A stretch of 64,000 bases of DNA from Tetramitus jugosus (lineage: Eukaryota; Heterolobosea; Eutetramitea; Acrasida; Vahlkampfiidae): positions 124,001 through 188,000 of the forward strand of contig OW569354.1 in NCBI GenBank assembly GCA_937625935.1, written 5' to 3'. The position numbers were made by a program, and so were the translations under genes. The notes under the pieces are model-generated. The model searched no databases and had not been told where the DNA came from. It saw only the letters and a program-made list of their open reading frames with translations. Below are positions 24,819-57,987 of the stretch, piece by piece; position 1 is the first letter of the stretch; each line of letters starts with the position of its first letter.

Positions 24819-24952
24819 TGTGAATTGTGTGCGTGTTGATGTTGTGTGTATTGATTGGGTTGTTTTTTCGTTTTTTGGTTGGTGTTTCCACCGTGTTCAC
24901 ACAAGATGCATTCAATGATTTTCTGGATTGGCAAAACACCGACAGACGATAC

Positions 24953-24956
24953 AAAA
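24953..24956 (-). terminator. Pol III terminator of tRNA-Phe
   Basis: TTTT on the minus strand, three bases after the tRNA discriminator base. Confidence 0.8.
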
Positions 24957-24959
24957 GGT

Positions 24960-25032
24960 TGCCGAAAGCGTGGATCGAACACGCGACCTTAAGATCTTCA
25001 GTCTCACGCTCTCCCAACTGAGCTATTTCGGC
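24960..25032 (-). tRNA. tRNA-Phe (anticodon GAA)
   Basis: 73 nt including discriminator A. It folds as a standard cloverleaf: acceptor GCCGAAA/TTTCGGC (7 bp), D arm GCTC-AGTTGGGA-GAGC, anticodon arm TGAGA-CTGAAGA-TCTTA with anticodon GAA, and T arm GCGTG-TTCGATC-CACGC. There is no intron and no encoded CCA. Box B (GTTCGATCC) and box A (TAGCTCAGTTGG) are intact. A LINE insertion sits 41-56 bases upstream of its 5' end. Confidence 0.97.
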
Positions 25033-25072
25033 TTCTTGTTCATAATTCCATCGAATTGTACCATTTTTATTT

Positions 25073-25087
25073 TTGTGATGGAGAGTA
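25073..25087. repeat. Target-site duplication, left copy
   Basis: 15-bp sequence TTGTGATGGAGAGTA, identical to 26514..26528. It directly precedes the LINE fragment and marks the insertion site. Confidence 0.93.
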
Positions 25088-26379
25088 GGGCAGGGTGGAT
25101 CAACCGAGTGAATCATATAGGCAAAGCATTGATCAAACGGGGTTCTGTTGCAATGCGGAGGTACCCCTCAGAATTGTTGCATGTGGCGTGCGATAATGGT
25201 GGCTTCGGTCTCCGTAGATTTGAGGAATCATTGCTGGTGAACACTGCTTGGTTCATCATCAACATGCTGAAAGGGAAGCATGATGGCGAGGCTCACAGAC
25301 TGTTGTTGGATACGCTTGAGGAGATCAGGCATCTACAAACATTCCAGGTAGAGAATGTATTCCAATCCAACAACAGGATTGAGCTCGTCGCACATAGCTA
25401 TCTTAAGTGGTGTGCTGTCCGTATGCACACCAACCACCTCACTATTTCTTGTGGGAATGAGGTCAACTGTCTGAGTTGCAATCTGGCACTCTCTCAGCCA
25501 AATGACATCATCAAAAGGTTGTTCAAGGTGGGAATAGGGCTGAGGAGTCAATTGACAGTGGGTGGAAAGTGGATCAGGCATAGCGAATTGGTCAAAAGGC
25601 ATGGAAATTTTGGAATTAGTTCTCGCAGATACAAGTACTTGACAAGTGACCTTGAAATGCTACAGTGCAATGGAAATCACGAGCATTCAGGCGACACTAC
25701 CCCAAGGTTAATGTACAATGATAGTTTTGAGGTCGTAGAGAAGGAACAGTTGTGGCGAGTCTTCTTGCGACGACATAGGGATAGGGTGAAAGAGGAGAGG
25801 GTATGGTGGATACAGTCTAAGTGTTTAGGAGGTGCTGTAGATTTTAAATTTATGAGATGCCCTTTCAGGGTCGACCGTGCACTGGAATGGTTTGTGGCTC
25901 AGGTGAAAAGTCACACAATTCACACTAAGGCCGTTGTCCAACATCTCTATGGAGTAGTGGACATGGATACGCTATGTCCCAAATGCAAATTTGAACAGGA
26001 AACGGTGTTACATTGTCTCGTTAGATGCCCGGTGGCGATAATGGCCAGAAAACTGTTGGTGAAGGAAGTTTCCACCAAGCTGAGTAAAATGGGTCTTCAC
26101 AAGGACCAAAGAGTAGACATGTGGTTCGACAACCAACGATGGAGCAACGGCGCATTACTAGTCAATAAGCGGAGGAAAACTAGCAAGGAATACATGCTTG
26201 GCATGTTGGGTATTGAAACAAGGGCGCTGAAACAAGTGATCAAAGGACTGACGAAGAGTGGAATAGAGAAGAAGAAGGCAAGGGAGAAGGCCCAACAATT
26301 TGTCGATCATACAAAGAGGAGATGTGTGGAGGTGATGCGACGCCTCTTCACGAGTTCAAAGGAGATTGCTGGTTGCTAA
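25088..26379 (+). CDS. LINE ORF2 C-terminal fragment (post-RT region, zinc knuckle)
   Basis: About 430 codons open in one frame through the whole truncated element. The reading frame also runs upstream into host DNA by chance, and a host ATG lies in the duplication at 25078. The visible part starts after the reverse transcriptase catalytic region. It includes CDNGGFGLRRFEESLLVNTA, which resembles the thumb-region GGLGL motif of LINE reverse transcriptases, and a zf-RVT type cluster CPKCKFEQETVLHCLVRC (CCHC). The YxDD active site is absent, so the fragment cannot act as a reverse transcriptase. It ends in a Lys/Arg-rich segment. Confidence 0.85.
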
Positions 26380-43165: not shown

Positions 43166-46100
43166 ATGAAAACATCGACAACGAAAAACAACAATACCAC
43201 GACAACCATACCACCAACCGCAACAACGGCGACTGCACCATCATCGGCAACGACAACAGCGTCACTTACTACACCTATTATCATCACGAATAACAAAATT
43301 GCTACAATGGAGGAGCGAAAACGGAGGAGAGCAGAAACCTTGGAGTTGCCTCCCGATGCTGTCACAGCTGAACGTCGTGGCAGCAACTCTAGAAAGTCAG
43401 TGTCTACGATATTTGGTTCGTTGCACATGTCGAAGGCAAACAAGACTCCCACTGGCACAGACTATGAAGATGATGAAAGAACAGATCCAGACAATTGTCG
43501 TGATGTGAGTCCACTGCCGTGTCATCATGATTCGTCGCCTTTATTGAGATCGGCAATGACAAGCTCCATGGAGTCATCATCATCGTTAGTGTCTTCTCAC
43601 GATGATATTTTGGAGTGGGCTGAGAAAACTTTGAAACAGTATAATGATCAGAGAGCGACTGATGAATTGGCCACGTTTTCTCATTGGTTCACTTGGCGGT
43701 ATTTAACTTTTTTCTTGGCTCTTTTTGTATTGATATTTTCGGTGCTTGTATTGGTGAGTGATGATCCTGGCCAGGTTGATGCTCATTTGGATGGAAAAGC
43801 AAAGTACACATGCACAAGTTTAGTGTTCATATTTGCATTGTTGTTGATAACTGATATCAATAATTGTTATCAGCAAATTAGTCAGTTGAAGCAACAAGTG
43901 TGCATGGTGGTTTGCTTTGTGAATGGAATTGCTCTTTTTACTGTACGTGTGATCGATTGTTGTCGATTAGAATATTTGAACTTTGTACGTTATTTGGGCA
44001 GTAGTTTTTATGATTGACACATACAATGTATTGATTGACTATAGAATGTTTGCCTGCAATTTCATTGGACTCCAGTACTCGCGGACTGCTTTGGTCGATC
44101 GCTTTATCCCATTCGATGTATGTATGATAATTTAATTGCTTTAAGTGCATGGTATCTAATTTCGTTTCTTACGTTACAATAGATTTAGAATGGACATTTA
44201 CGACACCGTGCCTACTGTTTTTGATTCATCGGTTAGTTTTTTCAATGAGATTTCCAGGAAAAACACATGGCCTGGACAAGAGCTTGGTGACATTGTTGCT
44301 TTGTGAGATTGCTATGCTTATTACAGGATTTTTGGGATCTTATTTGTCGAATCCATTGATGAGATTGTTGAGCATTATTCTCTCATTCGTGTTCTTTATG
44401 CCAGTAGTGTTGATATTGAATTATGAAATCCAAGATTGCCTCAATGGTTTGACTGCCAAGTTCTATGGCTCTGTACAAAGTTTACAATTTTTGCGCATTG
44501 TAATATTTTTGACATGGTCATCATTCCCAGTTGTATGGCTCATCTCTGCTATGGATCTAATTTCAATTGAGAATGAAGCGGTTGCGTATGGACTTTGTGA
44601 TCTGGGTGCAAAGTTCTGTCTATCAGTGCTGCTCGTCAGTGGTAACTTTGCAGTGTTGGATCACATGGATATAGTTCAAAGGATTCGAATTACAGAGGAT
44701 AATCGAAGACTGGGTGCAATGAATAGAAAGGTTGAACTGGATTCCAGGCTTCAGAGAAATTTTTTTGCAATTAGTGCACATGAGCTACGTACTCCATTGA
44801 ACTCTATTATCGTGTTTAACGAATTGGTGTTGGATATGGAGACTGCTCCTTTGAAGCAAGAGTATCTTCTCTCATCATTAACTTCAGCCAAAGCTTTGCT
44901 GTCAGTCATTAACAATGTATTAGATTTCACAAAGTATGAGTCGGGAGATTGGGAGCTCGATAATACCGAGTTCCATTTGTATCAACTGTTGGACGATGTG
45001 ATCGATATTGTATCTGCTCGTGTGAGTCGCGAGAGTATTCATTTGGAAGTCACTTGTACCAGTTGCAGAGATAAGCTTCTGTTTGCTGATATGACCCGTC
45101 TCAGACAAGTATTGCTCAATCTCGTGAGTAACGCTATTAAATTTAGCAAACAGGGATCAGACATCTATTTGGATGTTCACTTAGTTTCCGAGTCCGAAGA
45201 TTCCATCGAGCTCGAATTTGCCGTAATTGATCAGGGTGTCGGTATGGCTCCTGATAGCCTCGAGAGAATATTTCATCCATTTTTCCAAGTGAGTGAGACT
45301 TCTCACAAGCAGGACGGCACTGGGTTGGGTCTCGTTATTTGTAAGAGTATTGTTGGAAAAATGAATGGTGATATTGATGTGAAATCGACAGTTGATTATG
45401 GCTCAGAGTTCAGTTTCCGAATTCCAGTCAAGAAGGTTCGAGAGGCTGATTACTACCTCGAGTTTGAACAGGGAAAGATTGACAGAACTCTCATCATTAC
45501 TCCAAGAGTCGTATTTGGAGAGTTTCTTGGTGATTTACTCGTTGACTGGGGATCGGGCAAAGTTGAAATAATAAGCGATGTCCCACCAGATCACAAGTTG
45601 GGCGACTATAATCTCATTGTTGTCGATATCAGCACTGCCAGCTGGTGTGAAAGACCTGATTTTGAGAGATTAGCGAAAGGATATCAGACCAATTGTCTCT
45701 TTTTGATTCCCTTGATGGAAACAGAAAACATAGCAAAGCTTGTGTCTGTGAAACAGATTCTATCGAAGCCGATGAAGTTTTCCTCTCTGTATAACGCTAT
45801 TTCCCATCTGAAGGACAAGACAAGACGTCCTAATAGCAGTAACCATCAAGACAGCATCTTGCAAAATAACTATAATCCCTCAAAGAAAGATTTTAGGATC
45901 TTGATTGTTGAGGATAATCAAACGAACCAAAAGGTGGCAATGGCTATTCTTGCCAGAGAGGGATATTCTTACCATTTAGCAACCAATGGCTTTGAAGCAA
46001 TCGAAAAGGTTGGACAGAATAATTATGATGTCATGTATGTAACTCTTTTTATCCCCACACATCAATTTGAAAACTCACCCATCGTCTTTGACAGTTTAAT

Positions 46101-46350
46101 GGACTTGAATATGCCAAGATTGAATGGCTTAGAGGCATCAAAACTCATCAGAGAGTCCGAAACCAATTGGAGGAATCATATCATTGCACTGACAGCAGAC
46201 TCAACAGACGAAACCAAGAGGCAGTGCATGGCTCATGGAATGGATGATGTAATCATCAAGCCCATCAGTACAAAGCATCTCTCAGCTGTTCTAGATGTTC
46301 AATTCAAACAAAAACGCTCACAAACAAGTAACAAAGCATCAGAAACATGA
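43166..46350 (+). CDS. Microbial-type rhodopsin fused to histidine kinase and receiver
   Basis: Four exons (43166..43942, 44045..44117, 44183..46034, 46095..46350; introns 102, 65 and 60 nt) give 985 aa. A Thr/Ser-rich leader precedes eight hydrophobic helices: one extra N-terminal helix (about 178-198), then helices A-G. Type I opsin signatures: helix C RYLEWTFTTPCLL (Arg283, Glu286 at the counterion site), helix F FLTWSSFPVVWLI (Trp395, Pro399, Trp402) and helix G GLCDLGAKFCLSVLL (Asp423, Schiff-base Lys427). The kinase follows: H-box FFAISAHELRTPLN (His483), N-box LVSNAIKFS, G1 DQGVGM, F-box FHPFFQ and G2 GTGLGL. Then come a degenerate receiver and a complete receiver (ILIVEDNQTNQ, Asp904 in ILMDLNMPRLNG, IIKP). 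It is a likely light-driven phosphorelay sensor; the retinal source is not in the window. Confidence 0.93.
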
Positions 46351-53900: not shown

Positions 53901-56900
53901 TCATGAATCATCAAATTCGTAGTTCTCTCTACACCGTATGCAATAATAATGATCTGGCCAATCTTCTGGATCTGGATCAGCAGGGTTGACTCGAACACTG
54001 AATCCTTCACAGCCGGGACAGCACACATTGTCACAGTCATCACCTTCACACATCAAGAGCTCTCCCTTCTTCTTGCATCTCATACACTGATTCTGGTGAG
54101 ACTTTTCTTCGTCATTATAATTATCACACTCTTCTTCATCATAATCTGACTCTAGCTCTGACTCTCCACAATCATCTCCATTGTGCAATTGAGAATACGA
54201 TGTCACAGATCTGTGTCTTCGTGTGGAAAGAATATTAGCAAGACGAATACCATCTTCTTCGTCTTCATCAGATTGTGTATTCTTCTTTGCAGTTCTGGAT
54301 ATCTTCGGTGACTTACAGGAGCTTCTACTAGTGGTGTTGCTTCGTTTCCGCTTTCCGGACTTCCCGGAAGATATAGGCTTCTTCTTAGATTGCAAGGCAT
54401 GTCCTCTCTTCTCAATTAATCGATCAGTGTATTCCTGAACAGTCAACTCTCGATCTGAATGCGGCTGTGTTGATACCAACAGATCATAGTGCTTCTCTAC
54501 CGTGGATATGTCAACATTATTCCTCTCACAACCCTTCACAACTACTCCATATGCTGCTACTGTGTCTGCTGTTGCTTGGTGTTGTTCATACTTATTCTTC
54601 CCAAAATAATACTCATGTAAACTGGGCAGTGACAATGACTCAAGTTCAACATGTTCCATCTGAGTGATATGCTTCACCACAAACTGCAGATCTGTGAATA
54701 GCAGATTCTTCATAAATCGCAAGCCAACACCAGCAAATAGTTTGACCAATAATCGATAATCATGTGATCTGCCAAAATATGCAGCCAGTGCAATCTTATC
54801 TGCGTTGACCATATTGAAGAAGTGCTGGATCTCAGAACAGACATGAATGGGGGTTGGTGCTGATCTCAATTGCTGCTTCGTAATTCCATGGATATCCACT
54901 TTGCCAGCACTGCCTTGCCTGACAAGACTGTTGAATACAATACCAGATCTGGGATGGTTGAAGCAAACGGATATAATCTGGAAATTTCCATTCCACTCAA
55001 AATCACAGTAGACAAAATCCTGAGCCACATGCTTCAGCGGACGGAGCTGCTTCTTGTCTGGTCGTTTCCACAACTCAGTGTATTTCATTCCAAAGGACAT
55101 TTCTCCGGAATGTTCTGATGTGACTGGTGCAGAGTCAACACTCTTGGTTGCCTTGATCATGACCTCATCCACCGTAACACTCATACTTCTCAGCTGCATG
55201 AAAGCCACTGCCTCTTGAGCGAATGATCCAATCATGTAGTCTCTACTCTCCTTTGTTCTAATTTTGAGTTGATGTTCCTCAATTAACTTGGCTCGGCTGT
55301 ACTGCTGATCATTGTATTCAGCTTGCTTCCGCTGGCGTCTGTTACTAATTGCAGCAATTGCAGTGTTTGTGCTCTGGATCTGAGTGTTCGTGTCGCTGTA
55401 ATATGCGTCTGTTCCAATGCTGGCTCGATGTAGATGATCTGGATGATGTTTCATTATTCGCTGCTGATTCACTTTGGAAAACACTATCAGAAATGCAAAC
55501 ACTGTGAATCTTCGTAACACTGCTCTGAATTCACCGAACAATCCTTCCAGCATATTTGTCATAAATAGATGCAGATTGAAGGTAGTAATACCAAAATGTT
55601 CCAGCAGTTGTCCCAGTGATTGAACAGACTCAGCATTGAGCAAGTATGAATCCAATGTCTCCTTTGGGAAATTGTATTTGCTGCAATCGAGAATTCCATA
55701 TACACTCTTCCAATGAGATAGTTCTGCTGTGTCTGCACTCAAACACTTACTATAATCAGATAGTTCAGACTTCTGTACACACTTGTGGTAGGTATTGTTC
55801 ATCAGACTAACAAGCCGAATTAAACCAGTGAATTGAGGAAACTCTTCCTGCAATACTTTCAGATAATCATCACTACATACAGCAGCCATATGAGACTCGC
55901 TTTGCTTGTCTGTTGTAAATATATCAGAAGGCTTCAATACCTTCCTCACTGCCTCAGAATTCTGGTATGTATAAATAATTGTATCCAGGCCAACAATATG
56001 TGTTGTATAAGCAACAATAGTCATAGAGACTTCACTGTCACAAGCAATCTCCAGGTGATCAAATGCTTTTGCAGGAGTGAGGATTCCAATCTGTACTGCA
56101 TTATCACCCGCTTCTCTGTGTCCACCTTCTACTTTCTCATCAAAATGGTGGACCGTATTATCATCTGAATGAATACAATGGTACAACACAGAGTTACCAC
56201 TTTTGCACTGCAATTGAAATGAACTAGAATAGTTGATAGTCAGCAACAGATAGTTGATTGCCTCTTGTCTACACCGAAGTACCTTTCTCGGCTTCAATAT
56301 GTACTTTGCGACAATACTGTACTCCTTCACTGGAATTAGAATTTGCTTGAGCTTCATGTTGCATTTGTCACTTTTGCACAAGTGACACACACAAATCATT
56401 GCTGGTAATTTCACCTGTGTTCCATCTTTGAGCTGAAACGGTGGTGTCTTCAATTGTAGATCCTTCAGAGCACTAATATTTGCTCCATCTGCTGCAAGTA
56501 AGCCAACATTTATATTGTGATCATTGCATGACCGAATACCTTCGGAAACTAAATCTGTAATTACTCCAGATGTCTCAGAATATGTGCAAGTGAATCCCAA
56601 TATCTGTGCCACTTCACCTGAAGCATGAACTAACAAACAAACAATAGCCTTCTTCGCTAATTGTTTGTGAGATAAACTGAGTAGCTGATTGAATAATACA
56701 TCATCATCGATGTCCGATATTTTGTGTATCTTCTGAGATTCACCATATATATATCCAGTGCTTCCAGATACTGTGATACCACTGATTAGCTGTATGCCAT
56801 CAATCATGATAGCCCAAAAGTTTTCTAGTTTCAACTCGGTCATTAATAGAGAGCAGAAATTGACATTATCTTCCATAATTCCATATTCATGCACGAGTGA

Positions 56901-57987
56901 TGGTGACATCTGGTCTATTAATGAATTTGAAGGAAGAATAAACACGAGATCTCGAACATCGTATTCTCCCTTATCTTCCTTGTCACCACTCTGTCCCAAT
57001 AAATATTGATACTTACGGCGACTGGTGTATGTGCGAATGTTATGACCGAGTATCTGCAATGGAACTGGATGACTCCAACTATGTTTGTTAAATATATTAA
57101 TGTTTCGCAACTGTGACGCGATGAATTGTGTAATCAATGCATCTGGTGGTAATCTGCCATTGCGTAATGCCTTCTTCAAATTTACAACTAATTCATTATT
57201 GTCTGAATCATCCTGTATGTCATATATGTGCTGTACGATTTGGATAATCTGGACAAACTACATTGAATAATTCTTCTTCGTCATCTAGATCACTCTGAAA
57301 ACTAAATTTCGGTGACTCATCGCCGGTCTTATGTCTACTTATTACTGTGCTTTGAATTGTATCTGTAATAACTTTCGATTCACTATGAACTATGATAACA
57401 AAGCTTCTGTTTGAGCCCTTCTTCTCAACATGCAAACACGGCTTCAGTATAACGCTCTTGTTGATATTGTTGATTGGTTTGCGACTAGTGACTTGCTCCT
57501 GCAGTACGTTCGATACAAATTGAGGTACTCCCATAAAGCCAGTACTCGCTGCGAGATGCTGAATCGCATTGACATGATGCTGTGCGAATGCCTGCTTCTT
57601 GGCAATCAAGTCATTCACTGTTAGATAGAGAATAGAATCTTTCGTTGTGCTCTGCTCGCGAGTAAATATATTGTTTGCGTTCGTTTTGTCGGAGATGAAA
57701 TTTTGTAATTTGGTCACGATCCCAGTGTCAAACAGATCCAGTGGTATTGGATAAGCAAACGATGGAATCTCATATCCTGCCATCACTTGATACGATAGAT
57801 AGTGATGTATATGGTACTGTGATACTCCAGAAACTAGTTCCAGCTCATTGTCAATCGAATTGAAATCATAGCGATGAGTCTCGAACAATTTCATTATCTT
57901 CTTGTGCATTGTGGAGTCAACAAATCCTTTGTATTGTAGAGCATAACTACCCTTGCTAGCTTTTGCTCTTCTGAAATAATCATTCAT
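53901..57987 (-). CDS. P-element-like transposase core + DEDDh exonuclease + PHD finger
   Basis: Exons 57262..57987 and 53901..57212, with a 49-nt intron (57213..57261), give 1345 aa from the first in-frame ATG. The frame is open to 58110 but no ATG lies upstream, so the true start may be in a missed exon. Middle third: a THAP9/P-element-like RNase H fold with candidate acidic residues in FWAIMIDGIQLISG (Asp380), VGLLAADGANISALKD (Asp484) and TNMLEGLFGEFRAVLRR (Glu798). Then a DnaQ-type exonuclease with all DEDDh motifs: DFVYCDFEWNG (Asp979, Glu981), GRSHDYRLL (Asp1060) and EQHQATADTVAA (His1120-x4-Asp1125). A Lys/Ser-rich linker and a C-terminal PHD finger (CMRCKKKGELLMCEGDDC to HYYCIRC) finish it. 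No THAP domain is seen. It is a transposon protein or a domesticated derivative. Confidence 0.8.

Follow-up and report, generated by a model that had tools for sequence, protein, structure and literature searches.

Does the gene at positions 43166..46350 of the window, the 64,000-nucleotide stretch of DNA analysed here, encode a light sensor in which a microbial rhodopsin is joined to a histidine kinase, and is the junction genuine? The window is part of a 588-kb contig, in an assembly of 26.35 Mb and 56 contigs. All parts of the gene are located on the + strand. The gene is split into four exons, and the spliced product measures 985 aa. Exon 1 (43166..43942) encodes a Ser/Thr-rich N-terminal tail (residues 1-174), an additional transmembrane helix (TM0), helix A and most of helix B. 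Exon 2 (44045..44117) encodes the end of helix B, the B-C loop and the start of helix C, ending with R283 and one base of the Y284 codon. Exon 3 (44183..46034) includes helices C-G, a linker, the HisKA and HATPase_c domains, a degenerate receiver and the beginning of a canonical receiver; exon 4 (46095..46350) the rest of the receiver with D904, T934 and K956, and the stop codon. The introns are all of the GT-AG type, and measure 102 nt (intron 1, 43943..44044, GTACGT...TATAG), 65 nt (intron 2, 44118..44182, GTATGT...AATAG) and 60 nt (intron 3, 46035..46094, GTATGT...GACAG). Intron 3 is in frame and stop-free, and its retention would add 20 residues to the receiver, ahead of D904. Gene limits, opsin motifs and their order are as described in an earlier, sequence-only reading of this DNA. 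In the spliced protein RYLEWTFTTP starts at residue 283, WSSFPVVWLI at 395 and CDLGAK at 422, and the numbering given there for Lys427, His483 and Asp904 holds.

The whole protein was compared with 24736 Pfam families. Matches above the curated cut-offs were obtained for Bac_rhodopsin (residues 221-438, E 7.4e-22, 78.4 bits versus a cut-off of 24.6), HisKA (474-538, E 2.8e-13), HATPase_c (586-700, E 1.6e-27) and Response_reg (856-967, E 4.5e-26), the last spanning the junction of exons 3 and 4. PDE8A_N and HATPase_c_3 matched below cut-off. In unspliced exon 3, opsin (1.2e-16), HisKA and HATPase_c all score above cut-off, the receiver piece below. The receiver score rises from 25.0 bits for the exon 3 piece to 91.6 bits when exon 4 is joined, in support of the third splice. 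The opsin score rises from 61.3 bits for exon 3 alone to 78.4 bits with exons 1 and 2. Exon 1 by itself has no opsin match, and no Pfam family above cut-off; helices A and B are therefore placed by hydropathy, by the profile match of the spliced protein and by one splice. Since helices C-G and the kinase share one exon, the opsin-kinase fusion is independent of splicing. As judged from the sequence, there is good support for a fusion of rhodopsin and hybrid histidine kinase.

The opsin part has the marks of type I rhodopsins, the Bac_rhodopsin profile match and, in helix G, a Lys preceded four residues earlier by an Asp. The membrane region falls inside the microbial rhodopsins, as the sequence-only reading had held. 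The alignment to bacteriorhodopsin, a comparison suggested in that reading, has 47 identities over 216 aligned residues. R283, W287, T290, T291 and P292 correspond to bacteriorhodopsin R82, W86, T89, T90 and P91; W395, P399, W402, D423 and K427 to W182, P186, W189, D212 and K216. The alignment is unsure in helices A and B. The helix G motif D423-L-G-A-K427 (44599..44613) is predicted to provide the retinal Schiff-base lysine and a counterion, and retinal is the probable chromophore. Bacteriorhodopsin D85 and D96, the primary acceptor and the cytosolic proton donor, are replaced by E286 and L297, respectively. The top PDB match of the opsin part is 6kfq ("Rhodopsin", E 5.1e-9). Of the 110 distinct PDB sequences reaching E 10 or better, the best 60 bear the names of rhodopsins, opsins or their pumps, apart from 6gyh ("Family A G protein-coupled receptor-like protein") and 7cj3/7d7q ("Phosphodiesterase"). 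The latter are taken to be the rhodopsin phosphodiesterase, and 7cj3 aligns to residues 39-268 of the query, corresponding to helices A-G.

Upstream from the opsin profile match, which starts at 221, a hydropathy segment spans residues 173-205 (maximum 2.88). It marks TM0 (43688..43762, residues ~175-199, ends set by hand), and suggests an opsin with eight transmembrane helices, as in other enzymerhodopsins. The count of eight is a reading rather than a measurement, obtained by adding the hydropathy segment to the helices of the profile match. Helix C stays below the hydropathy threshold of 1.3, and was placed through its motif and the profile; helices D and E merge in the scan, and a segment of the degenerate receiver (719-737) exceeds the threshold. 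The charges of the short loops are consistent with both ends being cytosolic. The exception lies immediately before TM0, where the 15 residues ahead of the hand-set helix end include 1 K/R and 3 D/E, contrary to the positive-inside rule. The N-terminal tail of ~170 residues is predicted to be cytosolic. Eight helices with cytosolic N and C ends have been concluded for Cop5/HKR1 and the 2c-Cyclops (PMC6284317), and eight helices including TM0, with cytosolic ends, have been established in the crystal structure of a rhodopsin phosphodiesterase (PMC7644710).

The HisKA dimerisation and phosphoacceptor domain (44752..44946) carries HELRTPLN at 483, the His being H483. The HATPase_c domain (45088..45432) has its N box at N600, G1 at 633-638, F at 647-652 and G2 at 662-667. 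In the receiver, E860, D861, D904, T934 and K956 are all present, and ILMDLNMP starts at 901. Names and roles of the kinase boxes and receiver residues follow general usage. The boxes and the receiver Asp are those noted in the sequence-only reading, in domains above the Pfam cut-offs. Opsin, histidine kinase and receiver are covalently joined in this order, with the phosphoacceptor His, the ATP-binding boxes and the receiver Asp, Thr and Lys intact, as in the histidine kinase rhodopsins (HKRs). The stretch between kinase and receiver (residues ~715-825; 45475..45807) is matched by no Pfam family, also when the limit is relaxed to E 10. Its place, the motif IVVDIS and LSKPMKFSSLYNAI make it look like a degenerate receiver. 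The architecture had been recognised as opsin-kinase-receiver, TM0 and the degenerate receiver being overlooked; the description as a phosphorelay in one protein is incomplete, since a separate HPt protein is likely needed after Asp904. A C-terminal guanylyl cyclase, hallmark of the 2c-Cyclops, is absent from the Pfam scan to E 1. When compared with the pieces translated from 30 HisKA loci of the same genome, the kinase found its best other match in L012, only 28% identical over 565 aa; no recent in-genome copy was therefore seen.

A relative was found by a protein search with the kinase region. Among 8000 candidates scored, 6320 passed E 1e-20, and the best 120 were examined. P0001, an unannotated protein of a public assembly (source label lgn, 6072-base contig), ranks first of the 120 (474 bits, 50% identical; the runner-up reaches 465 bits at 30%), and is the only one among the 120 matches listed in which the opsin family is visible. 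P0001 is 47% identical to exon 3, and runs from opsin helices D-G through HisKA, HATPase and the degenerate receiver into the beginning of the receiver. Identities are 48/133 (36%) in opsin helices D-G, 11/29 in the linker, 49/65 (75%) in HisKA, 63/115 in HATPase, 43/107 in the degenerate receiver, 7/28 in the spacer and 21/44 in the receiver part; by this pairwise measure the opsin has changed more quickly than the kinase core. D423, K427 and H483 are conserved. The helix F retinal-pocket Trp (W395) is replaced by Arg in P0001, and E325 (bacteriorhodopsin D115 position) by His, so that in this relative at least the retinal pocket is unusual. Both frames read D-V-M-Y-V where intron 3 starts with GTATGT, and the intron is probably common to the two genes, at the same codon. 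The E-values of the whole protein versus 24736 families, and the repetition of the arrangement in P0001, argue that the domain matches are not due to chance. The fusion is very probably genuine, and more ancient than a single species. When the opsin part was the query, protein searches gave no match at E 0.001 (2343 candidates) or 0.01 (418 candidates); they are no evidence of absence, because they did not return P0001, found via the kinase region. No relative was detected by scanning for related loci viral contigs (245 stretches matching the pattern) and prokaryote genomes (80 stretches).

The preferred reading, to which a probability of about 0.75 is assigned, is that the protein is an HKR, an eight-helix photoreceptor in which retinal at K427 alters the activity of the fused hybrid histidine kinase. 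Retinal would be bound at K427, E286 and D423 would act as counterions, and the change in kinase activity would be transmitted from helix G through a linker of ~40 residues to the helix of H483. The phosphate would move from H483 to D904, and from there by way of a separate HPt protein to a RegA-like receiver-phosphodiesterase, and light would thereby regulate cyclic nucleotides. The sign may be either, inhibition by light being as likely as activation.

It is distinctly unlikely that the light function of the opsin part is lost or altered, and that next to a conserved kinase it anchors the protein in the membrane or senses another cue such as pH, voltage or lipid. The lower conservation of the opsin relative to the kinase in the comparison with P0001 (36% versus 75% in HisKA), the lack of the retinal-pocket Trp in P0001 and an uncertain source of retinal speak in favour of such a change. 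K427, D423, R283, E286, W287, W395, P399 and W402 are, however, all found in the window protein, and D423 and K427 are retained in P0001. Fast divergence of the sensor part is moreover ordinary among histidine kinases. Much less probable is a light-driven ion pump or channel, to which the kinase would be an accessory. The Glu at the bacteriorhodopsin D85 position is shared with ChR2, but L297 stands at the position of the proton donor D96, so that a cytosolic donor is missing and a pump is disfavoured; direct fusion to the kinase argues for signalling. A false fusion, by misassembly or by reading two adjacent genes as one, can practically be discounted: the gene model derives from DNA rather than cDNA, but helix G and HisKA lie within one uninterrupted open frame of 739 aa, and P0001, coming from other data, shows the same opsin-kinase junction, on which ground misassembly was rejected.

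The same genome was searched in six frames, exon by exon, counts of large families being lower bounds. The 26.35 Mb include one opsin match, no BLUF match, at least 30 HisKA stretches, the rhodopsin kinase included, and at least 40 receiver stretches, of which 3 fall below cut-off and some are fragments of a single domain. HPt stretches are three. One ends a single-frame protein of 1002 aa (L041:1616-4621, G000 C5), in which a receiver and a class I cyclic nucleotide phosphodiesterase precede the C-terminal HPt. Another is at the C-terminus of a gene (L039:1884-4427, C12) made of a receiver, split over exons, and PDEase_I. The third is in a frame of 295 aa, located in the same contig as the rhodopsin kinase gene. 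Receiver and phosphodiesterase pieces are found also at L040:4554-7184 (G000 C17), in several frames and with no HPt match; a hydrophobic C-terminal segment was noticed there by eye. Receiver plus phosphodiesterase is presumably the plan of Dictyostelium RegA. Given these RegA-like proteins, control of cyclic nucleotides is the most plausible output, and a RegA-like receiver-phosphodiesterase the most likely downstream target of the HKR.

The source of retinal is less clear. The genome has one carotenoid-cleavage gene of the RPE65 family (L032:1258-2868, G000 C17). In PDB rankings its nearest proteins are a carotenoid 9,10-dioxygenase and an NCED-type enzyme, apocarotenoid-15,15'-oxygenase ranking lower, and for this reason the product may not make retinal. 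SQS_PSY matches are two. Squalene synthase accounts for the first (TIGR01559, 388 bits versus a cut-off of 286.75), the second is below every NCBIfam cut-off, and no phytoene synthase was recognised in the genome. A carotenoid pathway of its own is hence unsupported, and a carotenoid would need to come from food; a food-derived carotenoid as the source of retinal is a guess.

The HKR class is already known, and what is new is its occurrence in a probable heterolobosean, rather than a mechanism. In Chlamydomonas HKR1/Cop5 and in the 2c-Cyclops (Cop6, Vop6), as here, opsin, histidine kinase and receiver follow one another in one chain. The extra N-terminal helix and the cytosolic ends, predicted here, are reported for HKR1/Cop5 and the 2c-Cyclops, and the latter are described as inhibited by light, their phosphoryl transfer having been demonstrated by mutagenesis (PMC6284317). 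In contrast to the 2c-Cyclops, no cyclase domain was found, and the chain measures 985 aa rather than the 2549 and 2210 aa of the two 2c-Cyclops (PMC6284317). The degenerate receiver between kinase and receiver distinguishes the protein from both HKR1/Cop5 and the 2c-Cyclops. Cop5 is said to be devoid of the Asp85 acceptor (PMC7693036), whereas a Glu occupies this position here. P0001 has opsin D-G, both kinase domains (HisKA and HATPase) and both the degenerate and the canonical receiver in common with the protein, and differs in the helix F Trp to Arg change. The rhodopsin phosphodiesterase of Salpingoeca rosetta and the rhodopsin guanylyl cyclases are eight-helix enzymerhodopsins with TM0 (PMC7644710), and differ in having an output domain other than a kinase. 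From Acanthamoeba, a heterotrophic amoeba, two rhodopsins carrying a histidine kinase and a response regulator have been reported, and their domain order is the same (PMC4053784). Acanthamoeba belongs to the Amoebozoa, and the present organism probably to Discoba; the comparison of the two draws on the published description. A third distant lineage would bear on the origin of the fusion, which may be ancient, transferred or repeated. The protein is also a candidate optogenetic kinase with no cyclase attached.

The heterolobosean affinity of the genome is supported by CYP51. In 54 PDB rows, the CYP51 fragment scored 550 bits with 5tl8, 356 with 6q2c, presumably from Acanthamoeba, 288 with 4uhi, presumably human, and 288 or less with the others. 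5TL8 is the Naegleria fowleri enzyme (PMC5746216). Identities to the latter are 120 of 206 columns, over two of the alignment blocks, so that the source is probably a heterolobosean other than a Naegleria. Adenosylhomocysteinase is weakly in favour of the same placement, which draws on these two proteins: its top match, presumably from N. fowleri, scored 818.7 and the next, presumably from Acanthamoeba, 807.0, a small margin.

In Heterolobosea, light sensing through flavins is known from Naegleria and Acrasis. The photoactivated adenylyl cyclase of Naegleria is a flavin-based BLUF sensor. The title of a reference names an N. gruberi photo-activated adenylate cyclase, and BLUF proteins and light-induced development are reported for Acrasis kona (PMC11589745). 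The present genome, in contrast, has no BLUF match. In the main text of the A. kona genome paper, which counts 28 kinase domains in Naegleria gruberi, no word starts with "opsin", and "rhodopsin" occurs 0 times (PMC11589745). No description of a heterolobosean rhodopsin kinase was found among the papers listed in searches of one open-licence library, which covers few subscription papers and no preprints. It may tentatively be proposed, though the proposal is more probably wrong than right, that a heterolobosean has swapped BLUF sensing for a single type Ib rhodopsin kinase, whose phosphorelay ends in HPt-bearing RegA-like phosphodiesterases and controls cyclic nucleotides. If such a replacement were true, enzymerhodopsin kinases would be common to green algae, Amoebozoa and Discoba. 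With one opsin, no BLUF match, three HPt matches and a plausible cyclic-nucleotide output, the genome seems a simple test case. Elsewhere in the window, long open frames at 53901-57257 and 24919-26379 have, by eye, a repetitive or transposon-derived look.
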